The position numbers and the translations under genes were made by a program. Below the pieces are notes generated by a model. It worked only from the letters and a program-made list of their open reading frames with translations. It made no database searches and was not told where the DNA came from. Below, one piece after another: positions 2,974 through 45,514 of a stretch of 64,000 nt of DNA. Origin of the DNA: Antiquaquibacter soli (GTDB taxonomy: Bacteria; Actinomycetota; Actinomycetes; Actinomycetales; Microbacteriaceae); the NCBI RefSeq assembly GCF_030580675.1, contig NZ_JAUQUB010000001.1, forward strand, positions 186,001 to 250,000. Reading direction: 5' to 3'. The stretch's first letter is position 1, and every line of letters starts with the position of its first letter.

Positions 2974-3858
2974 TCAGCGGGCCAGCAGTGCCCGGATCCG
3001 CGTCACGAGCTCCGCGGGGTCCCTCAAGTCGTCGGCGTTGAGCTCGACGACCTTCCAGCCCTGTGCCTCGAGGCGGGTCCGACGCGTCATGTCCCGTCGC
3101 CACTGAGCCCGCGTGCGGTGATAGTCGCCCTGGTACTCGAGAATTACCTGTTGGTCGCGGAACAGGAAGTCCGGCCTCGTCTGCTGGCCGGTGTCGGTAT
3201 CCACCAGGACGTGGTTTATCTCCGCAGTCGGGAGGTCGGACCTGGCGAGGATGACCCGCAATAGCGACTCCGGGCGGGACTCCGCGCGTTCGCTCAGCAG
3301 CGCGAGCGCTTCCCGCGCGAGGCGGATACCGCGGGCGCCCTCAGACCGCGCGATGAGCCGTGCTAGCTCGACCCGATCGGTGAATGGGGCGCGGTGGTGG
3401 ATCAGGTAATCGCCCACGGCTACCAGGTCGCCGAGACCGAGTTGGGTCGCGAGATCAACCCAGGTCCGCGCCGGAGAGCTCAGTCGGAGACCGCCCCACG
3501 TCGTGACGTCGGAATCGACGATGTCGAGCCGGTGTCCGATCACGTCGCGCGAGTGGAGCCGGGCGGCTGGGCTCGCCACAGAAACGTGCACCTTCGGCTC
3601 CAACTCCAGACCCCACGGGAGGGGCGCTCCCCAGAGCAGTGCCGCTGTTGAGTGGCTGAAGAACCCGTGCGCGGGAATGCGCAGGGCGAGCATCCGGCAC
3701 TTTTCTTCCACGGTCGGGGGCCGCTCGCCCGCGTGACGGAGCCCGTGGAGGGAATGCAGATCCCGCGCTCGAAGGCGACGAGCCGAGACCCCGGACTCCA
3801 TCGCCGCAGACGTCGAGAACTGCTCGGGGAGGGGAGGGAGGGGCTGGGGTAGACGCAT
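2974..3858 (-). CDS. DUF559 (Vsr-like) endonuclease-fold protein with AbiEi-like N-terminal part
   Basis: The 294-residue protein ends in a DUF559-type restriction-endonuclease-fold domain: PES with Glu197, RPDF with Asp230, and ILEYQG with Glu241 and Gln243, followed by HRTRAQWRRDMTRRTRLEAQ and WKVVELNADDL. These fit the E, PD and ExQ/K positions of PD-(D/E)XK nucleases. The N-terminal half (FFSHSTAALLWGAPLP, SPARTWVDLA) resembles the type IV antitoxin AbiEi-like region often fused to DUF559 in Actinobacteria. The ATG is at 3858, with 58 bases between it and the right palindrome; the stop is 4 bases from the left one. Substrate and role are unknown. Confidence 0.75.
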   Translation of the reverse strand: MRLPQPLPPLPEQFSTSAAMESGVSARRLRARDLHSLHGLRHAGERPPTVEEKCRMLALRIPAHGFFSHSTAALLWGAPLPWGLELEPKVHVSVASPAARLHSRDVIGHRLDIVDSDVTTWGGLRLSSPARTWVDLATQLGLGDLVAVGDYLIHHRAPFTDRVELARLIARSEGARGIRLAREALALLSERAESRPESLLRVILARSDLPTAEINHVLVDTDTGQQTRPDFLFRDQQVILEYQGDYHRTRAQWRRDMTRRTRLEAQGWKVVELNADDLRDPAELVTRIRALLAR

Positions 3859-8520: not shown

Positions 8521-8605
8521 GGAGGGCTGTCCGAGCGGCCGATGGAGCCAGTCTTGAAAACTGGTGGGCAGAAATGTCTCGTGGGTTCGAATCCCACGCC
8601 CTCCG
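8521..8605 (+). tRNA. tRNA-Ser, anticodon TGA
   Basis: An 85-base type II tRNA. Acceptor GGAGGGC pairs with GCCCTCC (8598-8604), with discriminator G8605. The anticodon stem CCAGT/ACTGG encloses loop CTTGAAA with TGA at 8555-8557. A long variable arm and TTCGAATCC T loop follow. CCA is not encoded. It reads UCN serine codons. Confidence 0.96.
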
Positions 8606-8645
8606 CTGTACTGTCGCCCCGCCGCGGGGTACGAAGGGATGTGTC

Positions 8646-9990: not shown

Positions 9991-10081
9991 GGAGACGTCG
10001 CATAGTCCGGTCGAGTGCACCACCCTGCTAAGGTGGAGACCCCTTTATTGGGGTCCGAGGGTTCAAATCCCTCCGTCTCCG
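9991..10081 (+). tRNA. tRNA-Ser, anticodon GCT
   Basis: A 91-base type II tRNA. Acceptor GGAGACG pairs with CGTCTCC (10074-10080), with discriminator G10081. The anticodon stem CCACC/GGTGG encloses loop CTGCTAA with GCT at 10027-10029. A long variable arm (GACCCCTTTATTGGGGTC) is present. CCA is not encoded. It reads AGC/AGT codons. Confidence 0.96.
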
Positions 10082-10087
10082 CAGATC

Positions 10088-24346: not shown

Positions 24347-25390
24347 TCAGGCGGCCGCCGCCTCCGCCGTGAGCAGTTCGCGCACGCGCGGGGCGACCTC
24401 GGTGCCGAGGAGCTCGATGGTGCGCGATCGCGCGGCCACGTCGAGACCGAGCACGTCGTACTTGAGGTCGAAGCGGTTGAGGCGAAGCGACCGAGCGACC
24501 CGCGCGATCTTCTGCGCGACCGTCTCGGGCGAGCCCACGAACAGAGCGCCGGTCGCCACCTCGAGCTCGTAGCGCTCGCGGCTCGGCGGGTAGAACCCGC
24601 GCTCGCGCGACATCCTTTCCACCATCGGCTGCCATGAGGTCCACCAGGTCTCGACGGCTTCCTCGTCGGTGTCGGCGATGAGGCCGAGCGAATGCTGGCC
24701 GACCGGCTGGACCGGCATCCCGAACTGCTCGAGCGCCCGGAAGTACAGGTCCACGTGCCCCGCGAAGCGCTCGGGCTGCCCGCCGATGATCGCGAGCATG
24801 AGGGGCAGCCCGTAGCGCGCCGCGCGGATCACCGAGTTGGGGCTGCCGCCGACTCCGATCCAGGTCGGGATGCCCCCCTCCCGCATCCTCGGGTGCAGCG
24901 TCTGCGCAGCCAGGGGTGCCCGCGTGCTCCCCGACCAGGTGACGGACTCCTCGCGCTGGAGCCGGACGAAGAGCTCGAGCTTCTCCTCGAAGAGCTCCTC
25001 GTAGTCGGCGAGGTCGTAGCCGAACAGCGGGAACGACTCGGTCGCGGATGCCCGGCCGAGCACCACCTGGGCCCGACCGTTCGAGACCGCATCGAGTGTC
25101 GAGAACTCGTGGTAGAGCCGAACGGGGTCATTGGTGCTGAGGACGGTGACGGCGGTGCCGAGCCGGATGGTCGACGTCGCTGTCGCGATCGCCGCGAGCA
25201 GCACGGGCGTCGCCGAGTCGACGAATCCCTCGCGGTAGTGCTCTCCGACGCTGAACACATCGAGTCCGACGGATTCCGCTAGGCGCGCCTCGTCGACGAG
25301 CAGTCGCACGGTCTCGGCGTCGGTGATGAGTTGTCCGTCGCGGCTCGGCACGTCGCCGAACGAGTTGAGCCCGATCTCGAAGGTGCTCAC
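24347..25390 (-). CDS. LLM class flavin-dependent oxidoreductase
   Basis: A 347-residue luciferase-like TIM-barrel enzyme using FMN or F420. Characteristic segments are FSVGEHYREGFVDSATPVLL, TSTIRLGTAVTVLSTNDPVR and GRAQVVLGRASATESF. GTG 25390 (MSTFEIGLNSFGDVPSRDG) is chosen because GGAGGA lies just upstream; a longer frame to 25447 would run through the operator sites. It is divergent from a marR gene, with two operator-like palindromes between them, so it is probably repressed by that MarR. Substrate unknown. Confidence 0.88.
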   Translation of the reverse strand: MSTFEIGLNSFGDVPSRDGQLITDAETVRLLVDEARLAESVGLDVFSVGEHYREGFVDSATPVLLAAIATATSTIRLGTAVTVLSTNDPVRLYHEFSTLDAVSNGRAQVVLGRASATESFPLFGYDLADYEELFEEKLELFVRLQREESVTWSGSTRAPLAAQTLHPRMREGGIPTWIGVGGSPNSVIRAARYGLPLMLAIIGGQPERFAGHVDLYFRALEQFGMPVQPVGQHSLGLIADTDEEAVETWWTSWQPMVERMSRERGFYPPSRERYELEVATGALFVGSPETVAQKIARVARSLRLNRFDLKYDVLGLDVAARSRTIELLGTEVAPRVRELLTAEAAAA

Positions 25391-25406
25391 GGTGTCCTCC
25401 TCAGTA

Positions 25407-25448
25407 ATTGACGTGTCAATAATGCGCCGATATGATTGATATGTCAAT
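25407..25448. promoter_or_regulatory. Pair of MarR-type operators
   Basis: ATTGACGTGTCAAT (25407-25420) and ATTGATATGTCAAT (25435-25448): two similar 14-base inverted repeats, centres 28 bases apart, between the divergent LLM and marR starts. The spacing is close to three helical turns minus a few bases. Confidence 0.7.
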
Positions 25449-25463
25449 TAGTTAGGGGAGAGC

Positions 25464-25934
25464 ATGCGCCGATCGCCCACGAGCCGGGATCTCGTCGTCT
25501 GGCGGGAGTTCGTCGAGACCGGCGACCGGCTGCGGTCGCTGCTGTCGTCCCGGCTGCAGTCGCAGTCGCAGCTCTCCAGCGGCGACTACGCCGTGCTGCT
25601 CGCGCTCTCGGAGGCGGACGGCCGCAGCATCCGCTCGTCGGACCTGGCTGCCGCGATCGACTGGGAGAGAAGCCGCCTCTCGCACCACCTGGGCCGGATG
25701 GAGTCGCGGGGCCTCGTGCGTCGCGAGGCGTGCGCGACGGACAACCGGGGGGCCGAGGTCGTGCTCACCGAGACGGGTGCGTCGCTGTTCCGCGCCGCCT
25801 CGGTGCCGCACCTTCGGGCCGTGCGCGAGCTGTTCCTCGACGCCCTCTCGCCCGAGCAGCTCGACGCCATCGACGGCATCACTCGCGCGCTGCGGGAGCA
25901 CCTGGACGTCGAGCGGGGCTCGTCCGCCCGATAG
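25464..25934 (+). CDS. MarR family transcriptional regulator
   Basis: A 156-residue winged-helix regulator: SSGDYAVLLALSEADGR, SSDLAAAIDWERSRLSHHLGRM split over the recognition helix, and the wing ATDNRGAEVVLTETG. ATG 25464 follows AGGGGAGAG. It most likely binds the two palindromes upstream and controls both itself and the divergent oxidoreductase gene. Confidence 0.9.
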   Translation: MRRSPTSRDLVVWREFVETGDRLRSLLSSRLQSQSQLSSGDYAVLLALSEADGRSIRSSDLAAAIDWERSRLSHHLGRMESRGLVRREACATDNRGAEVVLTETGASLFRAASVPHLRAVRELFLDALSPEQLDAIDGITRALREHLDVERGSSAR

Positions 25935-26035
25935 CGGATGAGCCCGTCGCGCGTCAACGGGTGGTTGCGCGCCCCCGCAATCCGGTCGAATGAGAAGTGC
26001 ACCACCCCGACTGACCGAGTCAAGGAGGCGACGAC

Positions 26036-26203
26036 ATGACCACGTTCTCAGTACCGAGCCCGCGCCCCGCAGTGCGGAGGCGGGATGCCCTGGGCATTGC
26101 GCTGCCGAACCTCAAGCGCCGGTTCACTCCCGGCGCGGGGCCCCGGATCGCTCGATCGACGTTCGTGCCCCGCTCGCTCGGAGGCGAGCCGAAGCGCGCG
26201 TAG
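26036..26203 (+). CDS. Small basic protein (55 aa), LPxxKRRFxP family
   Basis: ATG 26036 follows a strong AAGGAGG. The 55-residue product is basic, without membrane segments, and contains GIALPNLKRRFTPG and a C-terminal SLGGEPKRA. It aligns with the 52-residue protein at 38584: LP, KRRF, P, spaced Arg residues and LGG-P are shared in the same order. I do not recognise the family. It is followed by a long GC-rich hairpin terminator, so it is probably transcribed alone. Confidence 0.7.
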   Translation: MTTFSVPSPRPAVRRRDALGIALPNLKRRFTPGAGPRIARSTFVPRSLGGEPKRA

Positions 26204-26220
26204 CGACGCAGTCCGGTCGT

Positions 26221-26255
26221 CGAGAGGCCCGCCCCCACCCGGGGCGGGCCTCTCG
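26221..26255 (+). terminator. Hairpin terminator after the 55-aa gene
   Basis: Perfect 15-base arms CGAGAGGCCCGCCCC and GGGGCGGGCCTCTCG with a 5-base loop, 17 bases after the stop codon. No T-run follows, which is common in high-GC Actinobacteria. Confidence 0.75.
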
Positions 26256-26314
26256 CGTGTACCGCCGCGGGGTGTGAGCGGTTAGGCTCGGGGTAACGAC
26301 GAGAGGAACTCATC

Positions 26315-27400
26315 ATCTCCACGACCGACCCGACCGAGCCCACGGACCCGACGCCGCAGGCCGAGTTCCCGCCGCCGGCATTCCCACCGCCTGCGGTTCC
26401 GCCCGCTGCGACCCCGCCGGTCGCGGCGCCCACGGCCACCCCCACCCCCGGCGTCGCCGATCCCGCCGCCGTTCCCGCCGCGCCGGCTGAAGCCGCCCCC
26501 GAGGCGGACACCATCGCCTCGGCCGACACCCCGCCTCCGGCGCCGCCGAAGAAGCGCCGCATCATCGGCTGGGTGATCGCGGTCGTGCTGCTCGTGATCG
26601 CCCTCATCGCGACGGGCGTCTTCCTCTACCTCGCGCTGCAGCGGCTCGAGGAGGCCCGCCAGGAGATCGAGGAGCAGCAAGAGCTCATCGATAAGAAGGA
26701 GACCTTCGCCTCGGCTGCCGAGGACTTGCAGGCGACGGCGGCGAAGTTCGACGGACTGCCGTACGCGACCCTCGTCACCCCCGACTACTACGCGAGCCTC
26801 ATCGGCCGCGGCTGGTCTCACCGCTGGAACGGTCCGGCCCTCGACAAGGACACCGAGGACGTGAAGGCGGCGACGGCCGAGCTCGAGGACACCCTCGCCG
26901 CGGCTGAGGCACAAGCATCCTCGAACGCCACGGGCACGATCTTCGAGTCCCTCACCGACTCGCTCGGTTCCGGCTTCGTCGCCACGTCGCTCGACACGGC
27001 CGACGCCGCGTGCGAGCAGGATGTCTGGGGCTGCGTGAGCGGCGAGGACCCGTTCACCATCCACTACGACAACGCCGAGACCGCTGGCCAGCCGTACATG
27101 AACGACTTCCTGCGCACCGGTCTCGCGTACCACGAGTACGCGCACGTCCTGCAGATGACCAACCCCGAGCCGACCGAGACGGCGGCCGAGGCGTTCGGCG
27201 GCGACTGGGAGACGATGGCCGACTGCTACGCCCTCACCTACCTGCCCGGCTGGACGCTCGACCACACGATCTGGGTGAGCGACTACGAGTACTGGGAGGT
27301 CAGCGTCGGCTACGGCTACACGTGCAACGCCGACCAGGCGCAGGTCGTGCGCGACTGGGTGTCGCAGCTCGGCTACCACCACGAGCCCATCTCGCAGTAG
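26315..27400 (+). CDS. Membrane-anchored zincin-like protein with Pro-rich N-terminus (ATC start likely)
   Basis: Read from ATC 26315, the protein has 361 residues: a Pro/Ala-rich cytoplasmic region (about 1-80), KKRR, one helix (about 84-108), a short coiled coil (LEEARQEIEEQQELIDKK) and an outer domain. That domain contains HEYAH near residues 273-277 and GDWETMADC about 22 residues later, fitting an HExxH plus E/D zinc-protease site. No ATG, GTG or TTG exists in frame between the upstream stop (26294) and GTG 26573, yet the proline-rich stretch looks coding and GAGAGG lies 8 bases before ATC 26315. GTG 26573 is the fallback start (275 aa, starting inside the helix). Substrate unknown. Confidence 0.65.
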   Translation: MSTTDPTEPTDPTPQAEFPPPAFPPPAVPPAATPPVAAPTATPTPGVADPAAVPAAPAEAAPEADTIASADTPPPAPPKKRRIIGWVIAVVLLVIALIATGVFLYLALQRLEEARQEIEEQQELIDKKETFASAAEDLQATAAKFDGLPYATLVTPDYYASLIGRGWSHRWNGPALDKDTEDVKAATAELEDTLAAAEAQASSNATGTIFESLTDSLGSGFVATSLDTADAACEQDVWGCVSGEDPFTIHYDNAETAGQPYMNDFLRTGLAYHEYAHVLQMTNPEPTETAAEAFGGDWETMADCYALTYLPGWTLDHTIWVSDYEYWEVSVGYGYTCNADQAQVVRDWVSQLGYHHEPISQ

Positions 27401-38072: not shown

Positions 38073-38099
38073 CTGGCACTCTCCTGGGCAGAGTGCTAA
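38073..38099 (+). promoter_or_regulatory. CIRCE operator (HrcA site) upstream of hsp20
   Basis: CTGGCACTC, 9 bases, GAGTGCTAA. The CIRCE consensus is TTAGCACTC-N9-GAGTGCTAA; the right arm matches fully and the left arm at 7 of 9. It lies 62 bases before the Hsp20 start, so the operon should be repressed by HrcA and induced by heat. Confidence 0.88.
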
Positions 38100-38161: not shown

Positions 38162-38587
38162 ATGTCCAATCCGTTCGATGTTCTGAGCCAGTTCGACCGT
38201 CTCGCGTCCAGCGTCTTCGACACTGCTCGAGCTCCTCGGCTGATGCCCGTCGACCTGTTCCGAGACGGCGACCAGTACGTCCTCAGCGCCGACCTGCCGG
38301 GCATCGACCCCGGATCGGTCGACCTCGATGTGGACGGCCAGCTGCTCACCATCCGGGCCGAGCGCACTGCGCCGACGAGCGACAACGTCCAGTGGCTCGC
38401 CCACGAGCGACCGCACGGGGCGTACATGCGGCAGTTCACCCTCGGCGACGGAGTCGACGTCGACAGGATCACCGCCAACTACGAGCACGGCGTGCTGTCG
38501 GTCATCATCCCCATGGCGGAGCGTGCCAAGCCCCGCAAGATCCACGTGGCGTCGTCGTCGGCGGCCCCGAAGGAGGTGAGCGCGTGA
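38162..38587 (+). CDS. Hsp20/alpha-crystallin family small heat-shock protein
   Basis: A 141-residue ATP-independent chaperone. The alpha-crystallin domain covers about residues 38-130: YVLSADLPGIDPGSVDLDVD, LTIRAERT, FTLGDGVDVDRITANYEHGV with the conserved A-x-x-x-N/D-G-V/L-L motif as YEHGVLSVIIP. ATG 38162 follows GGAGA. The CIRCE site upstream predicts HrcA control. A 52-residue basic protein gene starts inside its stop codon (GTGA), so both are co-expressed. Confidence 0.94.
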   Translation: MSNPFDVLSQFDRLASSVFDTARAPRLMPVDLFRDGDQYVLSADLPGIDPGSVDLDVDGQLLTIRAERTAPTSDNVQWLAHERPHGAYMRQFTLGDGVDVDRITANYEHGVLSVIIPMAERAKPRKIHVASSSAAPKEVSA

Positions 38588-38742: not shown

Positions 38743-38750
38743 CCACCGTC

Positions 38751-38781
38751 CGAGGCGGCCCGACGTAAGCCGGCCGCCTCG
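38751..38781 (+). terminator. Terminator of the hsp20 operon
   Basis: Perfect 10-base arms CGAGGCGGCC and GGCCGCCTCG with an 11-base loop, starting 8 bases after the stop codon of the 52-aa gene. Confidence 0.75.
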
Positions 38782-38805
38782 GCGGGCTGCTCACATGCGT
38801 CGAGC

Positions 38806-45438: not shown

Positions 45439-45514
45439 GCGCCCGTAGCTCAATGGATAGAGCATCTGACTACGGATCAGAAGGTTAGGGGTTCGAGTCC
45501 CTTCGGGCGCACCA
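45439..45514 (+). tRNA. tRNA-Arg, anticodon ACG, CCA encoded
   Basis: Acceptor GCGCCCG pairs with CGGGCGC (45504-45510); discriminator A45511 and CCA 45512-45514 are encoded. The anticodon loop CTACGGA carries ACG, which after deamination reads CGU, CGC and CGA. T loop TTCGAGTCC is standard. Confidence 0.96.

Follow-up and report, generated by a model that had tools for sequence, protein, structure and literature searches.

A narrow family of small basic proteins encoded behind one clade of Hsp20 genes in Microbacteriaceae

Two small basic genes and their local signals

Two short open reading frames in Antiquaquibacter soli encode basic proteins with an LPxxKRRFxP core, which raises the question of whether they represent a real small-protein family and, if so, what such a family does. 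Both lie in the window analysed here, a 64,000-nucleotide stretch of contig NZ_JAUQUB010000001.1. P1 (26036..26203, + strand) has its own ribosome site and encodes 55 amino acids (MTTFSVPS...SLGGEPKRA) with a net charge of +10 and a predicted pI of 12. P2 (38584..38742, + strand) encodes 52 amino acids (VTESNRTR...TLGGPPLAAA) with a net charge of +11, and its GTG start overlaps the stop codon of an Hsp20 gene (GTGA). Re-reading of both frames confirmed the coordinates, lengths and motifs reported in an earlier sequence-only reading. The strong ribosome sites claimed there were also found as good sites, caAGGAGGcgacgacATG for P1 and gAAGGAGGTGAgcgcGTG for P2; the P2 site, AAGGAGGTGA, falls inside the last codons of hsp20.

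Hairpin terminators had likewise been proposed for both genes, and the hairpins themselves are present. Downstream of P1, a GC-rich hairpin at 26221..26255 (+ strand) has a 15-bp stem (26221-26235/26241-26255; -48 kcal/mol, z -3.5 for the stretch), and downstream of P2 another at 38750..38782 (+ strand) has an 11-bp stem (38750-38760/38772-38782; -35 kcal/mol, z -3.1). No T-run is visible after either, and a role as terminators is therefore only likely. A terminator scan of 25380-26330, which covers the P1 region only, found none.

Homology of P1 and P2

By sequence comparison, P1 and P2 are homologous. In a pairwise phmmer search with P1 as query, P2 scored 20.5 bits, whereas none of 5000 P2 shuffles exceeded 16.1. 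A profile built without P1, from five members (P2 and four relatives from outside the window), gave P1 36.8 bits, the highest score among 2000 P1 shuffles being 14.1; run against the 889 open reading frames of the window, the same profile recovered only the frames of P2 and P1 themselves among the matches listed. Nine columns (R, R, G, L, P, R, P, G, P) are invariant in the alignment of all six members. Every member carries L-P followed further on by R-[F/L/Y]-[T/V]-P, and five of the six have GG-x-P near the C terminus; the exception is the protein of Salinibacterium metalliresistens, from which the GGPPLRAA tail is missing. All six have a net charge of +7 to +11, a basic core and a predicted pI of 12.

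The hsp20 operon

P2 belongs to an operon with hsp20, of which it is the second gene. The first gene (38162..38587, + strand) encodes a small heat-shock protein of 141 aa (PF00011, E 1.3e-19), and upstream of it lies a CIRCE inverted repeat of the HrcA operator type (38073..38099, + strand; perfect match). The overlap of P2 with hsp20 was absent from the sequence-only reading. An intact small gene stands directly 3' of hsp20 in five species, coupled through GTGA, ATGA or TGATG, and the ribosome site within the last Hsp20 codons recurs in the relatives. The start codon thus overlaps or touches the hsp20 stop codon in P2 and the four outside relatives, and does not do so in P1. When the flanks of the six loci (about 3 kb) were compared at E 1e-6, no flanking gene was found in common; therefore, the hsp20-small gene pair is itself the conserved unit.

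CIRCE was found 5' of hsp20 at all seven loci with a high-identity Hsp20. A genome-wide scan gave seven CIRCE sites against none for the reversed control, and further sites lie upstream of a GroEL-like gene and a ClpB/ClpC-like gene (both named by eye from translations) and of a second hsp20. Within the window, no CIRCE with up to 2 mismatches was found besides 38073-38099, and hence none at P1; the operon of P2 has the operator upstream and P1 does not. Many Hsp20 genes that have no small gene are likewise preceded by CIRCE, and the operator is for this reason not specific to the small gene. The second Hsp20 of the same genome (L155, G000:C13:45194) has its own CIRCE and is followed by an unrelated gene, with no small basic protein.

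Relatives and distribution

A search of 60 related genomes, with P1 and P2 each as query, returned mostly chance matches, although one of them (G035) sits directly behind an Hsp20 gene, as P2 does. The window Hsp20 was then used to scan named genomes, which gave 42 loci, and downstream frames were read. Intact small genes were found in S. metalliresistens (L061), Schumannella sp. RYN_68 (L062), Pseudolysinimonas yzui (L063) and P. kribbensis (L064). In Leifsonia sp. SCN 70-46 (L065), only MTLRNTGGPPLRAA follows hsp20, that is, the C-terminal motif without the core. This remnant, after the hsp20 stop at 3423, comprises 14 codons with a start, a ribosome site and the last eight residues GGPPLRAA, which suggests either an internal deletion or a 14-aa peptide. 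Since this strain keeps the Hsp20 and only a remnant behind it, the small gene can be lost.

Downstream scanning was extended to 84 Hsp20 loci, of which 79 were distinct after removal of five fetched twice. Where Hsp20 identity was at least 82%, an intact small gene was present at five of seven distinct loci (62.6-88.5 bits); the other two were the Leifsonia remnant (10.7 bits) and L098, which matched over 76 residues and whose contig runs into N. Where identity was 74% or less, the small gene was present at none of 72 loci, the best score being 7.4 bits. Those five genes went into the profile and their scores are thus not independent evidence, whereas the contrast with the 72 loci is. The small gene behind hsp20 is restricted to a single Hsp20 clade; the majority of Hsp20s have no such partner gene.

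Wider searches showed the family to be narrow. Among 398 Microbacteriaceae genomes, a profile search at E < 1e-10 matched four (the source genome with two matches, G035, G085 and G161), beyond which S. metalliresistens provides a further strong member. Four more of the 398 matched at E 0.00097-0.0035 and were rejected after reading. Among 297 genomes from the order, searched at E up to 0.001, only the source genome and G634 matched, and the latter was rejected because the core is missing. In a six-frame profile rescan of 96 loci preselected by likeness (L001-L060, L103-L137, L197), nothing stood out except the hsp20-linked genes (59.9-86.5 bits) and P1 (36.6 bits); the next best were L114 (18.3 bits), L136 (18.0) and L135 (17.4), with the rest lower. 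Several candidates were discarded on inspection: L109 is an unrelated intergenic stretch beside an iron-uptake-like gene, L113 is antisense to a long open reading frame, L035 runs across an unrelated gene, L135 (THSGIHLPRLTRR) lies between genes without a ribosome site, and L134, L136, L137 and L197 share neither core nor context. Tallies at loose E-values (54/60, 51/60 and 110/299) consisted mostly of chance matches and for that reason were left out of the evidence. A plasmid search with P2 and a phage search with P1 gave no match.

Protein-coding evidence and family status

Conservation among the members is specific to the reading frame. The in-frame mean BLOSUM62 score of all six was 1.93, compared with 0.50 and 0.90 out of frame, and none of 500 column shuffles reached it; for the five hsp20-linked genes it was 2.48 against 0.71 and 1.12, a value reached by 2 of 500 shuffles. 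Divergence among members is too high for a proper dN/dS. Identity in the five linked genes was 0.56, 0.68 and 0.46 at codon positions 1, 2 and 3, the third being the least conserved.

These results bear on the view that there is no separate protein here; the frames would then be open by chance in GC-rich DNA, or would be the tail of Hsp20 after a frameshift. Long open frames are frequent in GC-rich DNA, and the frame of P2 is open for 203 codons through hsp20. Against this view, P1 matches as a free-standing open reading frame and the conservation follows one frame; moreover, the small frame in L061 and L063 has a stop a few codons 5' of its start, and a start codon is found at the coupled position in each. 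Taken together, this makes the view very improbable.

Profile libraries hold no counterpart. P1 and P2 had no match in Pfam or NCBIfam at E up to 10. When all six members were searched, NCBIfam and PHROGs gave no match at E up to 1, and in Pfam the Schumannella protein alone gave a sub-threshold match to PF12573 (17.1 bits, where the cut-off is 25). No matching chain was found in the PDB. None of the titles and first parts of abstracts found describes an LPxxKRRFxP family, which may nevertheless have been published elsewhere.

The sequence-only reading had argued for a real, unnamed small-protein family from the presence of two copies in 64 kb. The family itself is upheld, by homologues in other genera (the genome set labels four genera within the bacterial family), the coding signal, the conserved operon place and the lack of a library profile; the evidence for it comes from the hsp20-linked relatives and not from the pair of copies. 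It had also named two findings that would speak against a family, namely homologues restricted to very close strains, and synonymous and nonsynonymous sites evolving alike. Neither was seen, as homologues occur beyond close strains and the codon positions evolve unequally. The family is thus real, narrow and unnamed; what is new is its constant position downstream of hsp20 in a single Hsp20 clade. Genuine short genes that overlap a well-known stress gene can, on this showing, escape all current family-library profiles.

Proposed role and alternatives

According to the general view, small heat-shock proteins act either on their own or together with the Hsp70 and Hsp100 machines. The distribution reported here suggests that the family is a dedicated helper of one kind of small heat-shock chaperone. 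The best joint explanation, to which we would give about an even chance, is that P2 is the HrcA-controlled second cistron of the operon and encodes a disordered accessory of this Hsp20 clade, with P1 as a diverged paralogue. The arrangement of the two cistrons behind the operator is plain; from it we infer that HrcA controls the P2 operon and that translation of P2 is coupled to hsp20 in practice. Ribosomes ending hsp20 would restart at the overlapping start codon, and P2 would therefore be made in step with Hsp20 on heat or other unfolding stress. The product would be short, rich in Arg and Pro and largely disordered, and would act on or together with one Hsp20 clade, either modulating Hsp20 oligomers or linking loaded Hsp20 to other partners. 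Richness in Arg and Pro, together with a pI of 12, suggests disorder. AlphaFold2 gave P2 a mean pLDDT of 64.8 and a pTM of 0.14 with no secondary structure, from a six-sequence alignment that is too thin to prove disorder. An action of P2 on Hsp20 through physical binding would follow from their exclusive co-occurrence and from the operon place, although co-occurrence within one Hsp20 clade may reflect shared descent rather than function. P1, which stands outside the operon and has a ribosome site of its own, probably performs the same function when conditions differ.

Other functions would fit part of the evidence. The protein could be a disordered stress peptide that binds RNA or ribosomes in heat shock and is merely co-expressed with Hsp20; the charge, basic core and pI shared by all six members are what such a peptide would have, and co-regulation alone would account for the operon. 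This is nevertheless unlikely, as it leaves the restriction to one Hsp20 clade (5/7 against 0/72 loci) unexplained, and Gly, Leu and Pro are invariant besides Arg. A regulator of proteostasis that is not an Hsp20 partner, such as an adaptor or inhibitor of HrcA or a Clp protease, perhaps short-lived by virtue of an Ala-Ala-like C terminus, is improbable. Four of the six members end in LAAA, LRAA or VRTA, which may resemble an ssrA-type tail, and GGPPLRAA is present even in the 14-codon remnant, yet P1 (KRA) and the S. metalliresistens protein (RRTG) end differently.

The boldest reading gives the helper a specific mode of action, in which the core G-[I/V/L]-[R/A]-L-P acts in trans as a docking motif that binds the beta4/beta8 groove of Hsp20 and caps or remodels its oligomers in the manner of the IPV motifs of BAG3. 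This groove normally takes Hsp20's own C-terminal I-x-V, which is KIHV in the window Hsp20; binding of a C-terminal (I/V)-X-(I/V) motif in such a groove is described for a bacterial sHsp (PMC8155344, available in part), as is binding of HSP27 by BAG3 through IPV motifs (PMC8047445, available in part). All six members have hydrophobic-x-L-P, and His109, at the turn that leads into the last long predicted strand (111-118) of the alpha-crystallin domain, is found in 6/6 linked Hsp20s and 0/38 unlinked ones. It occurs also in the Leifsonia Hsp20 with the remnant gene, however, and may mark no more than the clade. At the core position, all six lack the strict [IV]x[IV] motif expected of a groove ligand and have only the relaxed [ILV]-x-L; when the same proteins are shuffled, 65-83% of the shuffles contain a relaxed [ILV]x[ILV]. 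The BAG3 variant P209L, which changes IPV to ILV, binds more weakly according to the part of PMC8047445 available, and this too counts against docking. Contact through the [I/V/L]-x-L-P core is thus faintly suggested by the sequences, and docking is kept as a minor reading because the strict motif is absent and the relaxed one common in shuffles. Its fullest form is quite unlikely: a coupled, disordered 6-kDa co-chaperone that docks by G-[I/V/L]-x-L-P and tunes oligomer opening, a counterpart of the BAG3 type, with P1 uncoupled from heat shock. A dedicated 6-kDa partner encoded with one Hsp20 clade, by whatever mode it acted, would offer a simple bacterial system for testing how a second polypeptide controls the assembly of an sHsp.

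Comparison with known systems

The family is functionally nearest to small HrcA-regulated or temperature-linked proteins of the Ruc and CrsL type, and by the features tested it is a member of neither. Ruc (Rv0991c) of Mycobacterium tuberculosis is described as small, partly disordered, HrcA-repressed, heat-induced and active alongside chaperones, as is proposed for P2; it differs in an N-terminal zinc-binding domain with four cysteines, whereas P1 and P2 have no cysteine, and coupling to hsp20 is not described in the part of the text available (PMC7448276). CrsL (MSMEG_5890) of mycobacteria, a disordered protein of 5.7 kDa, also comes from actinobacteria and is reported to be linked to temperature adaptation, but it shares an operon with otsA, has a conserved MLGIGP stretch and binds CarD and RNA polymerase (PMC12709188, available in part). 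The MLGIGP stretch is absent from P1 and P2, whose neighbours are hsp20 and MarR genes and not otsA. With the IPV motifs of BAG3 and human sHsps, the possible likeness is one of mode, a short motif docking in the sHsp groove (PMC8047445, available in part); BAG3 is a human co-chaperone without homology to the small family, which has the relaxed motif only. CbpM resembles the family in the role proposed here, as a small protein that modulates one dedicated chaperone, the co-chaperone CbpA, although it acts on a J-protein in gamma-proteobacteria and no sequence similarity is claimed (PMC4063869, available in part).

The P1 locus and other features of the window

P1 sits between a MarR gene and an uncharacterised gene. 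It is a solo copy found in this genome only, with neither a neighbouring hsp20 nor a CIRCE; a search of 27 genomes of the genus, the source included, found P1 nowhere else, and the loci kept from that search contain, within the genus, no other member than P1 and the hsp20-linked gene of S. metalliresistens. The MarR gene was tried and rejected as an anchor for P1, as its two best relatives (in G004 and G015) have no P1 downstream. What follows the MarR relative, by eye, is an amidase-like gene on the other strand in G004 and an ABC-transporter-like gene in G015.

Near-palindromic 12-mers, TTGACGTGTCAA and TTGATATGTCAA, lie over a promoter-like site at 25408-25447, between a luciferase-like monooxygenase gene and the MarR gene. 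No repeat of the 12-mers at 25408 and 25436 was found before P1. The two are likely MarR operators, and similar repeats stand 5' of the 66%-identical MarR gene in G004. Elsewhere, the window contains tRNA-Ser (tga) at 8521-8606, tRNA-Ser (gct) at 9991-10082 and tRNA-Arg (acg) at 45439-45514.
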